Source: a virus. From it: DNA of 38,836 nt. Shown piece after piece: positions 1,101-5,359 of this stretch (its first letter is position 1; every line of letters begins with the position of its first letter). The notes under the pieces were generated by a model that was not told the DNA's origin, did not search any database, and was given only the letters and a program-made list of their open reading frames with translations. Both the position numbers and the translations under genes were made by a program. The stretch spans positions 1 to 38,836 of IMG/VR virus record IMGVR_UViG_3300010883_000115, one strand, 5' to 3'.

Positions 1101-1141
1101 AAAAAAAGCCCACAACTATCGTAATTTGACAGTTATGGGCT
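1101..1141 (-). terminator. Rho-independent terminator, second of a tandem pair
   Basis: A stem with AGCCCA and TGGGCT ends and inner ACTATC/GACAGT pairing (1107-1141) is followed, read leftwards, by seven T. Read rightwards it is followed by GATTTTTT, so it may work in both directions. Both terminators abut a copy of the same 21-base sequence (1087-1107 and 1141-1161, with a TGATTTTTTAAATCA core), which points to a local duplication. Confidence 0.8.
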
Positions 1142-1153
1142 GATTTTTTAAAT

Positions 1154-1196
1154 CAAAAAAAAACCCTTACAATGTCAACAAGACACTGTAAGGGGT
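1154..1196 (-). terminator. Rho-independent terminator, first of a tandem pair
   Basis: Read leftwards, a 13-position stem (1164-1176 with 1182-1194, one mismatch, 5-base loop) is followed directly by nine T (1155-1163 on the complement). It lies about 50 bases after the stop of the ParB-fold gene and is a canonical end for the leftward transcript. Confidence 0.85.
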
Positions 1197-1246: not shown

Positions 1247-2608
1247 CTACTTGGACACCTTATTAGCCAGTTTTCGCTTAACTGACTTTTTAGACGGAGT
1301 ATCATTAGCTGTAACGTCCTTAGCTTCAGGCACGTTAGCTTCAGGTACTACTAATGTATCAACTGCTGTACGTACAATATCTAAGATATCGTTACGGTCA
1401 ACAGTAGGTAACGCATACTTACGCCCACCAATGAGAATTTCAATCTGACTCATGAAATCATGGTCAATTTTATGAGCTTTTTCAGACTGTAGAACATCAT
1501 CTAACAGTGAGGGTAAGTTAGCAATGGCATTTTGATTACCAAGAACGGCATTGAACAGAGTTTTACCAACCTTGCTCTTGGTTTCATCTTGATGAGTTTT
1601 AATCACCTGAGCCGATAAAGGTTTATCAGGTGGATTTAACTTATCAGAGTCGACCTTAGCCATAATCTTGGCATATGCCATGAGGACACCTTTCCCAGGA
1701 GTCTGTTTAGACACCAAGAAGTCGTTATCCTCTTTATCCTGTTTCACGTCAGCTTCATGAGCTTTAACCAGAGTAGCCAAATCTTTTGCCTTTAACTTGT
1801 AAGCCAATGGCGAAGAGTCTGAGAACTCGATAAAGTTCATTTCAAGGTCGTGCTTCAGGGGTAGACCACGAACACCTTGTTCCCAATGACTTCTTACGAA
1901 GTCAGGAACACGCCAAGCGTCCCGTAATAATTGCATATGTCCCCGACAAGCCGTCATAATACTATTTTGCATTTCTCGTTTCGAGTCAACGGTATGAGTG
2001 CGCCATTGTGAATATAACGACATTTTCGTAGGGGTTGAACATAATACTTCAACTATCAAACGCCACTGAGCAATTCTCACTTGAGTATCAGACATACCTT
2101 TCACGTAATACTGTTCCAATACGTGTAAGACTTCAATTGCATCACGTAGTGATTGTTGAAATCTTGATGAGTCATTTCGTAAGTTGAACACGTTATCAGC
2201 TTCAAGAGCAGTATACACTTGTGTGTTAATACCTTCATTGAAACCAAGGCGTACCCAGTCTTCAGGGTGTTCATCACGTATTAGCTTCAATGTCGCTATA
2301 CGATGATGAGCGTCCAACATTTGAAAGATACCATCTTTGGTATGATTAACTTTAGGCGGAGTGCTTAAACCAGTAGCAAGGATACTTTGAAGTAAAACAT
2401 TAGCATCAGTGCGGTCACGAGGTTGCCAGCCCGAAATGGCGGTGAAGTCATCAATGTCAACGAGCTTCATTTCAAACGGAATGTTATGAATTGGAACACC
2501 CGTAATTCGACTTTGCTCATTGAACTCTTCTTGACTCATCGACATTAAGTTCGCAAGTTCTAGATCGTTACGTGATTGTTTAGCCATATTACTTTTACCA
2601 ACTTTCAA
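1247..2608 (-). CDS. ParB/sulfiredoxin-fold domain protein
   Basis: A 453-residue protein whose N-terminal third has the ParB-type pattern. It has an SILATG segment near residues 75-80, and MLDAHHRIATLKLI at about 97-110 corresponds to the phosphate-binding G-x-H-R loop of the family, here with Ala for Gly. The rest is mostly helical, with a Lys-rich tail suited to DNA binding, and matches nothing I recognise. Family members act in DNA partition, as CTP-dependent clamps, as nucleases or as regulators. No ParA-like ATPase is nearby, so partition is not shown. The TTG at 2608 has AGGA 8 bases upstream. An in-frame ATG at 2587 has only a weak site, and either could be used. It is the last gene of the leftward block, ahead of two terminators. 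Confidence 0.75.
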   Translation of the reverse strand: MKVGKSNMAKQSRNDLELANLMSMSQEEFNEQSRITGVPIHNIPFEMKLVDIDDFTAISGWQPRDRTDANVLLQSILATGLSTPPKVNHTKDGIFQMLDAHHRIATLKLIRDEHPEDWVRLGFNEGINTQVYTALEADNVFNLRNDSSRFQQSLRDAIEVLHVLEQYYVKGMSDTQVRIAQWRLIVEVLCSTPTKMSLYSQWRTHTVDSKREMQNSIMTACRGHMQLLRDAWRVPDFVRSHWEQGVRGLPLKHDLEMNFIEFSDSSPLAYKLKAKDLATLVKAHEADVKQDKEDNDFLVSKQTPGKGVLMAYAKIMAKVDSDKLNPPDKPLSAQVIKTHQDETKSKVGKTLFNAVLGNQNAIANLPSLLDDVLQSEKAHKIDHDFMSQIEILIGGRKYALPTVDRNDILDIVRTAVDTLVVPEANVPEAKDVTANDTPSKKSVKRKLANKVSK

Positions 2609-2620
2609 GGACGTAGTCCT
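2608..2620 (-). promoter_or_regulatory. Palindrome over the ParB-fold ribosome binding site
   Basis: AGGACgtaGTCCT is a perfect 5-bp-arm palindrome. On the leftward strand its first arm contains the AGGA that serves the TTG start at 2608, and its second arm ends at the start codon. It could be an RNA hairpin that masks the site or an operator for self-control. Both are inference. Confidence 0.3.
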
Positions 2621-2736
2621 ATAAATTAAGTGAAAGTAAAGCCTAACCTACGATAGCCTATACATTTGATTTAATCAATCGCCCTAACAAATACACGCAA
2701 ATGTACGTACCAGAGAGAAGATAGAATGTTTATGCA

Positions 2737-3263
2737 GGCAAGAGCCAAGACACAAGACACTTAGAAGTTAATGACTAAAAAGCGGACAAGTGTTTGAGGA
2801 ATTTATAACTTAAGCGGAAGTCAACTAAGTTGCTGACAGCACCACTAAGGGCTTTTGATGGTTGCCAATGACTTACTATGCCATTGGTACAGTCAATGAT
2901 ACCACAATTACTTATATGGTCAGTGTAGTAACAAACGAACTCCAGATTTATAAAATCTAGTAGTAGCTTGTTGAAAATTGGATAAGGTGCGCACTCGAAC
3001 GTATCGAATTGCACGTAGCCTTCACCCCAAACAGTATGAAAAGCGTTGTTTGGAGTGTTCCAATTATCACGAAACCAGTCAAGGTTGTTGGTAACTAAGG
3101 GGCTTGGAATAATCTCTTGAAAGTCTACGTCACCATTGCCGTTGGAAATACTCTCGCCAATGGTATCGTAGCCACTTTTGAAGTAGATTACGTTAGTTTT
3201 TATTGTTTTATACATAAGATACCTACCTTTGTAAGATAAGTGTCTTGTGTCCTAGCCCTTGCC
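2737..3263. repeat. 27-bp inverted repeat bracketing the 2775-3215 gene
   Basis: The arms 2737-2763 and 3237-3263 match at 24 of 27 positions as inverted copies. All three differences are A-C or C-A on the + strand, so all become G-U pairs in leftward RNA, where the helix would be continuous. The arms lie 21 bases before the start codon and 11 bases after the stop. The 3' neighbour of the right arm is the hairpin beginning at 3264. Confidence 0.85.
2775..3215 (-). CDS. YubB/Api92-like ferredoxin-fold small protein
   Basis: A 146-residue protein. The segment WFRDNWNTPNNAF (about residues 47-59), followed by a strand and FDTFECAPYPIFNKL, resembles the family of plasmid and phage proteins known as YubB or Api92-like (DUF1281). 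In that family an NWGTKW motif precedes a substituted WSPP-like element. The family's function is not established. ATG at 3215 is preceded by AGGTAGG on the leftward strand at good spacing. It has no signal peptide and no membrane segment. The gene lies inside a 27-bp inverted repeat, so in the transcript its start and stop would be brought close together. It is probably an early accessory gene. Confidence 0.6.
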   Translation of the reverse strand: MYKTIKTNVIYFKSGYDTIGESISNGNGDVDFQEIIPSPLVTNNLDWFRDNWNTPNNAFHTVWGEGYVQFDTFECAPYPIFNKLLLDFINLEFVCYYTDHISNCGIIDCTNGIVSHWQPSKALSGAVSNLVDFRLSYKFLKHLSAF

Positions 3264-3362
3264 GAACCGAGAACCAAGGTTCGAATACCTAAGAGAGGCA
3301 ACACGTACACGTAAATGCACGTGTTGCTCAGGGGTAGGTATCTGAACCAAGGTTCTCGGTTC
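3264..3362. repeat. 99-base hairpin element
   Basis: Four stacked helices are seen: 3264-3275/3351-3362 (12 bp), 3278-3282/3344-3348 (5 bp), 3285-3290/3336-3341 (6 bp) and 3298-3306/3319-3327 (9 bp). A symmetric AA/AA internal loop separates the first two. The terminal loop (3307-3318) holds a second CACGT that could register-shift with the last helix. It starts directly after the 27-bp repeat arm. There is no T-run, so it is not a terminator. It could be a structured RNA, an RNase III site or a DNA cruciform. Confidence 0.75.
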
Positions 3363-3385
3363 TAGACTATCGTTGAGTGCCGTAG

Positions 3386-3569
3386 AGTCTACGCTTAAGA
3401 ACCAATAATCGTACGTCTTATAGAGTAGCTGTCAGCTGGTTTCCGCACTGAGACTGCTCGGCAACTATTGCAATACAAGGCCGTTAGTCATAGCTAGCAC
3501 GTTAAGGGGTATGCTGTTGTCGCTACGAGTATAAGACGTAAGATAATTGGTTCTTAAGTGTCGTAGACT
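3386..3569. repeat. Long-range 35-bp stem enclosing a 107-base loop
   Basis: The arms 3386-3422 and 3530-3569 pair in four runs: TACGTCTTATA (3412-3422) with 3530-3540, ATC with GAT, CTTAAGAACCAAT (3394-3406) with 3546-3558, and AGTCTACG (3386-3393) with 3562-3569. They are separated by A-A and G-A mismatches and a 3-base bulge. The enclosed loop can pair further (GTAGC with GCTAC, CAGC with GCTG). No ORF is enclosed. CGTAGACT (3562-3569) is also part of the next inverted repeat, so the two structures compete. Confidence 0.7.
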
Positions 3570-3858
3570 TCACGCTTACTAAAAGGGGTTAGTTACCATT
3601 GTAAGTGGTATGGTATGGTATCGTTTTGATATACGTGTATAGCTTTATATCTCTTGATATCCTGCGTAAATACTTCATAATGGTCACCACTACCCCTAGA
3701 CCATTGCCTTACGTCCGATAATTCACGATTGACGGTAGGGCGATAATAATTAGGGGTAGGGGTCATTGTAGACATACGTTTACTTGCAAAGCGTGCCTTG
3801 CGTAATTGTGCTTTCGTCATATGTAGCTCACAATCTGTAAGCGTAAAGTCTACGACAC
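3558..3858. repeat. 22-bp inverted repeat bracketing the 3593-3820 gene
   Basis: The arms 3558-3579 and 3837-3858 match at 21 of 22 positions as inverted copies. The one difference is C-A on the + strand and therefore G-U in leftward RNA. Pairing can extend outward by A-T and then a further A-C, which is again U-G in leftward RNA. The arms lie 16 bases before the start codon and 13 bases after the stop. Confidence 0.85.
3593..3820 (-). CDS. Hypothetical small basic protein
   Basis: A 75-residue protein with a basic N-terminus (MTKAQLRKARFASKRM) and an aromatic C-terminal half (DIKRYKAIHVYQNDTIPYHLQW). No family was recognised. The ATG at 3820 has only a weak GAG-type ribosome binding site. 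Support for its being a gene comes from its agreement in strand with the block and from the inverted repeat that encloses it exactly, as for the next gene. The basic start could bind nucleic acid, but that is a guess. A 66-residue rightward reading frame overlaps its 5' end and looks like a chance frame. Confidence 0.5.
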   Translation of the reverse strand: MTKAQLRKARFASKRMSTMTPTPNYYRPTVNRELSDVRQWSRGSGDHYEVFTQDIKRYKAIHVYQNDTIPYHLQW

Positions 3859-4300
3859 TCCATCGAAATTTCGTAAGCCTAGAGGCTATAGAATTTAACG
3901 TCCTCGTCGGACGTAGGTATATAATCGGAATATACCATAACCTTGCAACAATTGTTGCTTTTTACTATATGGCATTGGTTTGCTTGCCACCTCAATAATT
4001 CATTTTACCGCTTGCCTCATTACTCATATTAATTTTCGATATTTTCTTGCCCTCGATGTCGTGAGGGTTGCGCAACTAAGTGATAAAATTTATATTGTCT
4101 CCTGCGAGATTATAACCGACTTCTATATAGTCTAATTACTGTTTTAAAGCGGTATTTTTTATCCCCAACTATTGTTGGTTACGTCCTTTACCGCCAAAAC
4201 TAATGTCACACCGCAAAGCGTGGCACTAGTAGAAGTATTGCAAGCGCCATGCCACCCATGCCAAAACAGTAAAATAAAATAAAATAAAAAATAAAATTGC
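3859..4300. other. Palindrome-rich non-coding DNA
   Basis: No credible gene was seen. Perfect or near-perfect palindromes follow one another. They include AGCCT/AGGCT at 3876-3887, ACGTCC/GGACGT at 3898-3914, GGTATAT/ATATACC at 3916-3936, GCAACAATTGTTGC at 3945-3958, CCCTC/GAGGG at 4050-4067, GTTGCGCAAC at 4067-4076 and CCAAC/GTTGG at 4165-4178. The last sits inside GCGGTA/TACCGC at 4149-4194. GCAAGCGCCATGCC at 4240-4253 is a 12 of 14 inverted match to 4357-4370. An A-rich low-complexity tract lies at about 4265-4296. The region probably holds the leftward promoter, but none could be placed. Confidence 0.6.
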
Positions 4301-4873
4301 TGTAAGTCCTTGCTACATAAGGACTTATGAAAAATCTTTTTGTGGCACGCTTTTTAGGCATGGTTCTTGCATATAATTCATAAGTCCTTATGTAGCAAGG
4401 ACTTATGAAATCATATTCATAAGTCCTTACTACATAAGGACTTATGAGATTAACCTACCATATGGTAGGACTCATTCGGGTTTAGAGCGTATAGTGCTGT
4501 AAGTCCTTGCTACATAAGGACTTACAACTATTGAAAAAACTACCATATGGTAGGACTTTTTGCATTAAAGCGTGCATTTATAGCGTATAGTGTTGTAAGT
4601 CCTTATGTAGCAAGGACTTATAATACCTACCAAAGCGTAGTATTTATAAGTCCTTGCTACATAAGGACTTACAACAGATTTCTTAAATCAATTGTAAGTC
4701 CTTGCTACATAAGGACTTATAGCAATACCCTCTATTTTGCTTCAGGTTGGCTCAGGTTGCATAGTTTGCTATAGATATACATTTTAGCCTTTATAGCGAA
4801 TCATTGCTTATTTCGAAATAAAATTTGCCCTCTTCAAAAATCGTCATAAGTCCTTGCTATATAAGGACTTACA
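4301..4873. repeat. Eight copies of a 29-bp palindrome
   Basis: Copies lie at 4301-4329, 4379-4407, 4418-4446, 4498-4526, 4594-4622, 4645-4673, 4693-4721 and 4845-4873. Each has arms AAGTCCTT and AAGGACTT extended by three variable outer bases, around a 7-base centre. The centre is GCTACAT in four copies, ATGTAGC (its inverse) in the second and fifth, ACTACAT in the third and GCTATAT in the eighth. Outer bases co-vary (CAT with ATG, TGT with ACA) or differ by transitions. Spacing runs from 10 to 123 bases. The copies lack T-runs, so they are not terminators. They could be protein-binding sites, replication hairpins or a mobile palindromic element. Confidence 0.9.
4455..4604 (+). repeat. Direct duplication of a composite unit
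   Basis: CTACCATATGGTAGGACT, itself containing a palindrome, occurs exactly at 4455-4472 and 4540-4557. It is followed at different distances by a 28-base direct repeat (4481-4508 and 4577-4604, 26 of 28 matches) that runs into the fourth and fifth 29-bp palindromes. The two units are direct copies except that the palindrome centre is inverted in the second. Confidence 0.8.
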
Positions 4874-5070
4874 GCGGTTTCAGCTAAAAGGCTTTCCCCT
4901 GTATTGCATTATCTCACCCCTATTAATACTATAGTACCTAAAAAGTAGTTATTGCAATACAAGGCAAACTGAGCCATTCTAGAGCATAAGACTTAAAGTG
5001 TAGGGGTCAAATTTTAGTCTTTAAGCACATAGTCTACATTCCTGCAGGGAGTGGTGGACCGACAATCTGT
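4874..5070. other. Non-coding DNA with long-range hairpin and GC-rich patch
   Basis: TGTATTGCA (4900-4908) can pair with TGCAATACA (4953-4961). The 15-base ATTGCAATACAAGGC at 4951-4965 is repeated exactly at 3467-3481, inside the loop of the long stem there. A GC-rich patch containing CCTGCAGG lies at about 5041-5063, just before the repeat arrays. Its place upstream of the terminase genes would suit a packaging cut site, but no known cos sequence is recognised. Confidence 0.35.
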
Positions 5071-5151
5071 ATTTCGGATTTTCTAAATCGACATTTTGAA
5101 ATTTTCAGATTTTCTAAATCGACATTTTGAAATTTTCGGATTTTGTGAATC
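5071..5151 (+). repeat. Tandem repeat array A, 30-31 bp units
   Basis: Two full units (5071-5100 and 5101-5131) and a partial one (5132-5151) share ATTTTCGGATTTT and TAAATCGACATTTTGAA segments. Units differ by one base and one indel. The array is AT-rich, lies about 200 bases upstream of the terminase genes and runs straight into the next array. It is a candidate for terminase binding sites or replication iterons. Confidence 0.8.
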
Positions 5152-5255
5152 AAGAACCAAGATACTTAACATCTTAACCAAGAACCAAGATACTTAACAT
5201 CTTAACCAAGAACCAAGAATCAAGATACTTAACATCTTAATCAAGATACTTAACC
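5151..5255 (+). repeat. Tandem repeat array B, 28 bp units
   Basis: Two identical 28-base units (5151-5178 and 5179-5206) start CAAGAACCAAGATACTTAAC. A third unit (5207-5241) carries a 7-base insertion, and a truncated fourth covers 5242-5255. Each full unit holds a small inverted repeat, AAGAT and ATCTT around 7 bases. A perfect 7-bp-arm palindrome (5272-5286, TGATTCA/TGAATCA) follows before the coding region. Confidence 0.85.
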
Positions 5256-5359
5256 TTTATCTCTTTACCCTTGATTCAGTGAATCATATCACCTACTTAA
5301 AAAATGGTCGAACAAATATTCCTCTGCCGATTTAATTGATTTATAGTCACTTGTATATT

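Follow-up and report, generated by a model that had tools for sequence, protein, structure and literature searches.

Upstream of the terminase genes of a 38.8 kb virus record, leftward genes are enclosed by long inverted repeats that stand back to back, and many related uncultured phages carry the same anatomy. The sequences themselves support the presence of the stems, the close fit of each around a single leftward gene, the fact that they recur at one genomic place and a bias of their G-U pairs. We propose that the polycistronic transcript of these phages closes every cistron with its own stem of ~25 bp, each abutting the next, and that this transcript may be matured into separate, end-protected mRNAs; as a whole we hold this proposal to have slightly less than an even chance of being correct. 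Throughout, the window denotes the whole 38,836-nt stretch of DNA that was analysed.

A sequence-only reading of the window had described a 27-bp inverted repeat that seals one leftward ORF, and reading the repeat position by position bears this description out. Its arms lie at 2737-2763 (the 3' arm in mRNA sense) and 3237-3263 (the 5' arm in mRNA sense), on the minus strand. Watson-Crick pairs are found at 24 of the 27 positions, and the three others (2743, 2746 and 2748) are A-C on the plus strand, which equals G-U on the leftward strand, so that 27 of 27 positions pair when leftward G-U is counted. The distances given in that reading are also correct, with the arm edges 11 nt past the stop and 21 nt ahead of the start of the ORF at 2775-3215 (minus strand). 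This ORF, preceded by a Shine-Dalgarno-like AAAGG, encodes a 146-aa protein that has a partial match to PHROG 12644, a family of unknown function. The surrounding region (2601-4250) contains three repeats scoring at least 18 and one scoring 16; for repeats scoring at least 18, none of 1,000 dinucleotide shuffles of this region reached the repeat's score, and none of 100 shuffles of the whole window produced a comparable repeat. When the leftward RNA of 2730-3270 (541 nt) was folded, the predicted structure contained the full 27-bp stem, with z=-8.5 relative to shuffles; the rightward strand gave z=-3.7. Read directly, the sequence around 2737 and 3263 has no direct repeat that could be a target-site duplication.

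The sequence-only reading had presented this as a lone sealed ORF; the enclosure is real, but the unit shares its operon with others of its kind, arranged in tandem. Four repeats follow each other upstream of the terminase genes, at 2737-3263, 3264-3362, 3391-3561 and 3557-3859, with arm sequences that are essentially different from each other and have no other copies within the window. The second unit (minus strand, arms 3264-3291 and 3335-3362, Watson-Crick at 24 of 28 positions) begins at the base directly after the first and holds no gene in its 43-nt loop. The third (minus strand, arms 3391-3422 and 3530-3561, 29 of 32 Watson-Crick) has a 107-nt loop, and a search of 3391-3561 for an ORF with a Shine-Dalgarno site found none. 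The fourth, which shares 5 nt with the third, is formed by a 3' arm at 3557-3579 and a 5' arm at 3837-3859 (minus strand, 22 of 23 positions Watson-Crick and one leftward G-U) around a 75-aa ORF at 3593-3820 (minus strand), 13 and 16 nt from the arms, for whose product no relatives were found. The predicted fold of the leftward RNA over the chain is a row of stems.

The same leftward operon includes a ParB-like gene of 453 aa (1247-2608, minus strand), past which two leftward hairpins resembling intrinsic terminators (1107-1194, minus strand) mark the probable end of the operon transcript. A scan for terminators, defined as a short hairpin with a T run behind it, placed none on the four repeats. 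We also considered that the arms might be tRNA-like or belong to a known RNA, and rejected this, as there was no tRNA match and no Rfam family matched within 2700-3900 up to E=5.

Other repeats occur close to this operon. Between it and the terminase genes (window 4303-4871) lie eight palindromic units in both orientations, each composed of TAAGTCCTT, then GCTACAT or ATGTAGC (with one variant), then AAGGACTTA; this array is possibly an origin, a partition site or a regulatory site, and the exact unit was absent from the other viral contigs in which it was sought. Tandem direct repeats (TTTTCTAAATCGACATTTTGAAATTTTC and AACCAAGATACTTAACATCTT) are located at 5060-5260, just ahead of the gene for the terminase small subunit, and a CGGATTTTCAAAATC stretch in the contig L004 resembles them. 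At the corresponding place upstream of its terminase genes (1-700), L004 has dense short CATATG palindromes every 16-20 nt. In L016 / L025 (G019), and also in L027, the palindrome TTGATTTACTAAATCA is found at several places of the genome, in the manner of a dispersed operator.

Relatives of the virus were located through its terminase. Among isolated phages these are only distant (~25% identity), and scans of IMG/VR yielded more than 100 contigs, with terminases mostly ~45-55% identical; a scan with an alignment of ParB-like proteins added no contigs. The family set used for repeat statistics comprised 99 contigs (2.09 Mb), and near-complete or whole records were obtained for 17 relatives. No relatives of the 146-aa protein or of the ParB-like protein of the window were found in the viral contigs, the two queries giving weak matches only, among other phages and plasmids, and a DNA search of the region against phages gave no match.

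Many relatives show the same anatomy in the few kb upstream of their terminase genes. In L076/G031 the units are 2514-3745, 3745-4080 and 4084-4674, and in L053/G032 they are 559-1621, 1626-2008 and 2015-2263; L018/G007 has four consecutive units and L188 has seven, and further cases are L032/G009, L060/G028, L088/G014, L164 and L170. At a strict threshold, chains of abutting repeats are present in the window and in eight more contigs. There is no arm sequence common to the whole family. Five gene-enclosing stems of L188 (2071-4357) have a common inner half resembling GGCCTCCGGCCTC and unique outer halves, which deserves attention. Pseudoalteromonas phage KB12-38 (L203) was considered as a further case and rejected, since most of its repeats prove to be copies of a single palindrome, GGGGTAACGTTACCCC, which has 8 copies within the first 50 kb and mimics gene-enclosing repeats.

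The units are built to a common plan. Of 31 arms, 27 have a length of 23-29 nt, and in most units the 5' arm of the mRNA is followed by the start codon after 12-28 nt, and the stop codon by the 3' arm after 2-33 nt. A Shine-Dalgarno-like motif is located between the 5' arm and the start codon in most units, outside the arm and thus in the loop, so that sequestering of the Shine-Dalgarno site by the 5' arm is not a general feature. Some units have no evident gene or only a tiny ORF. Since spacers of a few nt are too short to hold promoters, the units are probably read from one transcript.

To compare the flanks of genes we used ungapped Watson-Crick scoring; RNAduplex energies were dropped, being noisy and showing no contrast with swapped partners. 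Flank complementarity of at least 18 was found for 22 of 2,204 ORFs, against 0.7 per 1,000 in controls in which flanks of different genes from the same contig were combined, and 20 of these 22 genes run opposite to terL. With a fixed threshold, the 99 contigs yielded 58 repeats in 31 contigs; 23 of these repeats fit tightly around a leftward ORF, and a single one around a rightward ORF. The spacings between consecutive repeats within a contig ranged from -2 to +6 nt in 15 of 27 cases and fell between 7 and 129 nt in none. Scans of T7 and lambda detected no gene-enclosing repeat of such kind.

The repeats were scored by Watson-Crick pairs only and symmetrically for the two strands, and G-U and A-C are therefore treated alike. 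In 31 units, each either chained or placed around a leftward ORF, mismatches are G-U on the leftward strand in 29 cases and on the rightward strand in 9 (p=0.0017), or 16 to 4 when counted per unit (p=0.012), with 19:17 for all other inverted repeats. Contigs gathered after the hypothesis had been formed gave 14:2 in favour of leftward (p=0.004); the chain units of the discovery subset alone gave only 8:6, so the total excess is one of modest numbers. The sequence-only reading had taken the three G-U pairs of the first repeat to suggest selection on an RNA helix, and not on DNA alone. That bias is present across the family (29:9), but three of three in one repeat is weak, as two other repeats of the chain have plus-strand G-U mismatches, and the strand bias is convincing only at the family scale. 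Part of the excess could come from a mutation bias (C to T, A to G) that affects the transcribed strand. At four-fold sites of the enclosed genes T exceeds A by 0.18, and G relative to C stands at -0.05; in the absence of a G-over-C excess, mutation bias is an insufficient explanation, though not one to be dismissed.

Pairing is also kept where the arms diverge. L164 and G017 are the only orthologous set suitable for base-level covariation, with a ParB-like gene that is 61% identical, a next gene that is ~45% identical, the same order and a small unit between them. Both arms of these units have diverged between the two phages, and pairing is nevertheless kept in all three. In alignable arms, compared by eye, one pair is C-G versus U-A and another U-A versus C-G, and other pairs are A-U versus G-U and U-G versus U-A. 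Covariation in the arms, which had been suggested as a check, is thus seen as double substitutions in this pair of phages, but the arms are not alignable between most phages.

ParB-like genes are enclosed in phage after phage. A stem scoring at least 17 surrounds 13 of 18 leftward ParB-like genes, and two more (G008 and G012) lie within a stem common to a neighbour gene. Among 16 rightward ParB-like genes no stem reached a score of 17, an imperfect control because several of these genes are a shorter paralogue. Not all relatives show stems: at the ParB-like gene, only weak stems are seen in G010 and in the window, where there is just a 12-bp exact stem (1216-1227/2634-2645), in contrast to the strong stems around relatives of this gene. 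Seven genomes (G001, G008, G009, G010, G013, G014 and G028) have a second ParB-like gene of ~280 aa in the other direction, which is never stem-enclosed.

The wobble bias towards the mRNA strand and the compensatory changes together indicate that selection most likely acts on RNA. Taken jointly, the unrelated but self-complementary arms, their placement exactly outside the translated part, their abutment and the G-U bias are explained best by selection for RNA pairing. The suggestion that a helix joins start and stop of the gene's own mRNA therefore agrees with the family tests of G-U bias, kept pairing and arm placement.

How such helices would work is a matter of analogy. We give about even chances to the idea that the operon yields a single RNA in which closed domains follow one another, with stems that act as processing stalks like those of rRNA. 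This transcript would span the leftward operon that lies upstream of the terminase genes. Within each domain, the sequence before the ribosome-binding site would pair with the sequence after the stop, nearly perfectly over ~25 bp, leaving the ribosome-binding site free in the loop, and the next domain would start within a few bases of the previous one. Host RNase III or a similar enzyme could then cut the stems, and cutting inside a stem would make each gene a separate mRNA with both ends base-paired and, in the proposed model, therefore protected from decay. A 12-bp stem is already enough for RNase III cleavage, full complementarity permits cleavage of both strands, and the duplexes that flank 16S and 23S rRNA are cut by RNase III (PMC8708148). 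The phages themselves encode no recognisable RNase III that we could find, and a search for RNA ligase / RtcB returned a single weak match or none. The best mechanism that we can offer would have both mRNA ends protected by rRNA-like stalks, whether or not RNase III cuts them.

The main rival is a purely structural closed loop that is never cut, in which the stems insulate cistrons by preventing translational coupling and leaving no exposed spacer to endonucleases, and keep start and stop close for re-initiation. At either end the stems do begin just beyond the ribosome footprint, with almost no single-stranded spacer between cistrons, and in E. coli operon mRNAs ORF-wide structural units predict translation (PMC5318159). 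However, near-perfect stems of 23-29 bp are expected to be RNase III substrates in most bacteria, and a loop-back of more than 1 kb, as the ParB-like genes would need, seems ill suited to coupling stop and start. We regard the uncut loop as rather unlikely, though worth keeping in mind.

Another possibility lies at the DNA level: the repeats might bound single-gene cassettes that move or are shuffled, serving as their ends or as sites of recombination, in the manner of integron arrays or of small elements that end in inverted repeats. Single small genes of unknown function in one orientation, with tight boundaries, a fixed place and contents that vary between phages, would fit such cassettes, as would the inner GGCCTCCGGCCTC-like motif that five arms of L188 have in common. 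Yet most units, and different phages, have no arm sequence in common, no homologous unit was found in changed order, a G-U strand bias would not be anticipated at the DNA level, and the recurrent enclosure of ParB-like genes also speaks against shuffling. No tyrosine integrase or resolvase was found in the 17 phages; PF00589, searched in these 17 phage records (possibly fragments), was absent, and control genomes were positive, although an integrase supplied by the host is conceivable. With neither integrase nor resolvase found and the arms unique, the mobile-cassette explanation is unsupported, and we consider it improbable.

Equally improbable, in our judgement, is negative control, in which the helix forms once the 3' end has been made and leads to RNase III decay or blocked initiation. 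There is a precedent in icaR mRNA, whose 3'-UTR pairs with the Shine-Dalgarno region, blocks initiation and feeds RNase III (PMC3868564). Repression of this type fits less well here because the Shine-Dalgarno-like motif is mostly free, being in the loop and outside the arm, and it is hard to explain why each gene of an operon should inactivate itself. Finally, although the region is fast-evolving and contains other repeat arrays, it is very improbable that the repeats are a by-product of inverted duplication by template switching or of chance, which would account neither for a score reached in 0 of 1,000 shuffles nor for gene placement, abutment, G-U strand bias and the lack of such repeats in T7 and lambda.

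A full-text literature search, which covered few subscription papers and so is no proof of absence, found no description of tandem gene-enclosing stems in operons. If the stalk model is true, viruses of bacteria wrap entire genes in closed domains of RNA, and operon mRNAs can follow a design rule, absent from the papers searched, by which cistrons become separate and end-protected without separate promoters. This would bear on the gene-by-gene stability and translation of polycistronic mRNAs, and could serve synthetic biology as a portable insulator.

Several known systems resemble this architecture in part. Integron cassettes likewise line up single small genes in the same orientation, bounded by inverted repeats, but an attC site folds upon itself next to its gene and depends on IntI, whereas the phage arms pair across the gene; and unlike transposable elements ending in inverted repeats, or MITEs, the phage arms are unique and not common among copies. 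In Staphylococcus aureus icaR mRNA the start and stop regions (5'-UTR/3'-UTR) pair as well; there, however, a 7-nt motif pairs with the Shine-Dalgarno site and represses, whereas the phage units have ~25 bp, a mostly free Shine-Dalgarno site and a tandem arrangement. The RNase III sites of phage T7 (R1.1 etc.) likewise place double-stranded RNA at gene boundaries of a polycistronic mRNA, but they are local hairpins between genes, and our scan detected no gene-enclosing repeat in T7. In the ORF-centric operon structure of E. coli each ORF is its own structural unit, but this structure is diffuse, statistical and within the ORF body, whereas the phage stems are discrete, near-perfect and outside the ORF. 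Bacterial pre-rRNA stalks differ in that the phage RNAs enclosed are protein-coding, with abutting stems, unique arms and cutting that is presumed. As in those stalks, a long helix is formed from both flanks of a gene and successive genes of one transcript each have a stalk; in the phages the helix arises from both flanks of the unit, and selection for pairing appears to act at the RNA level, as judged from small numbers and one orthologous phage pair.
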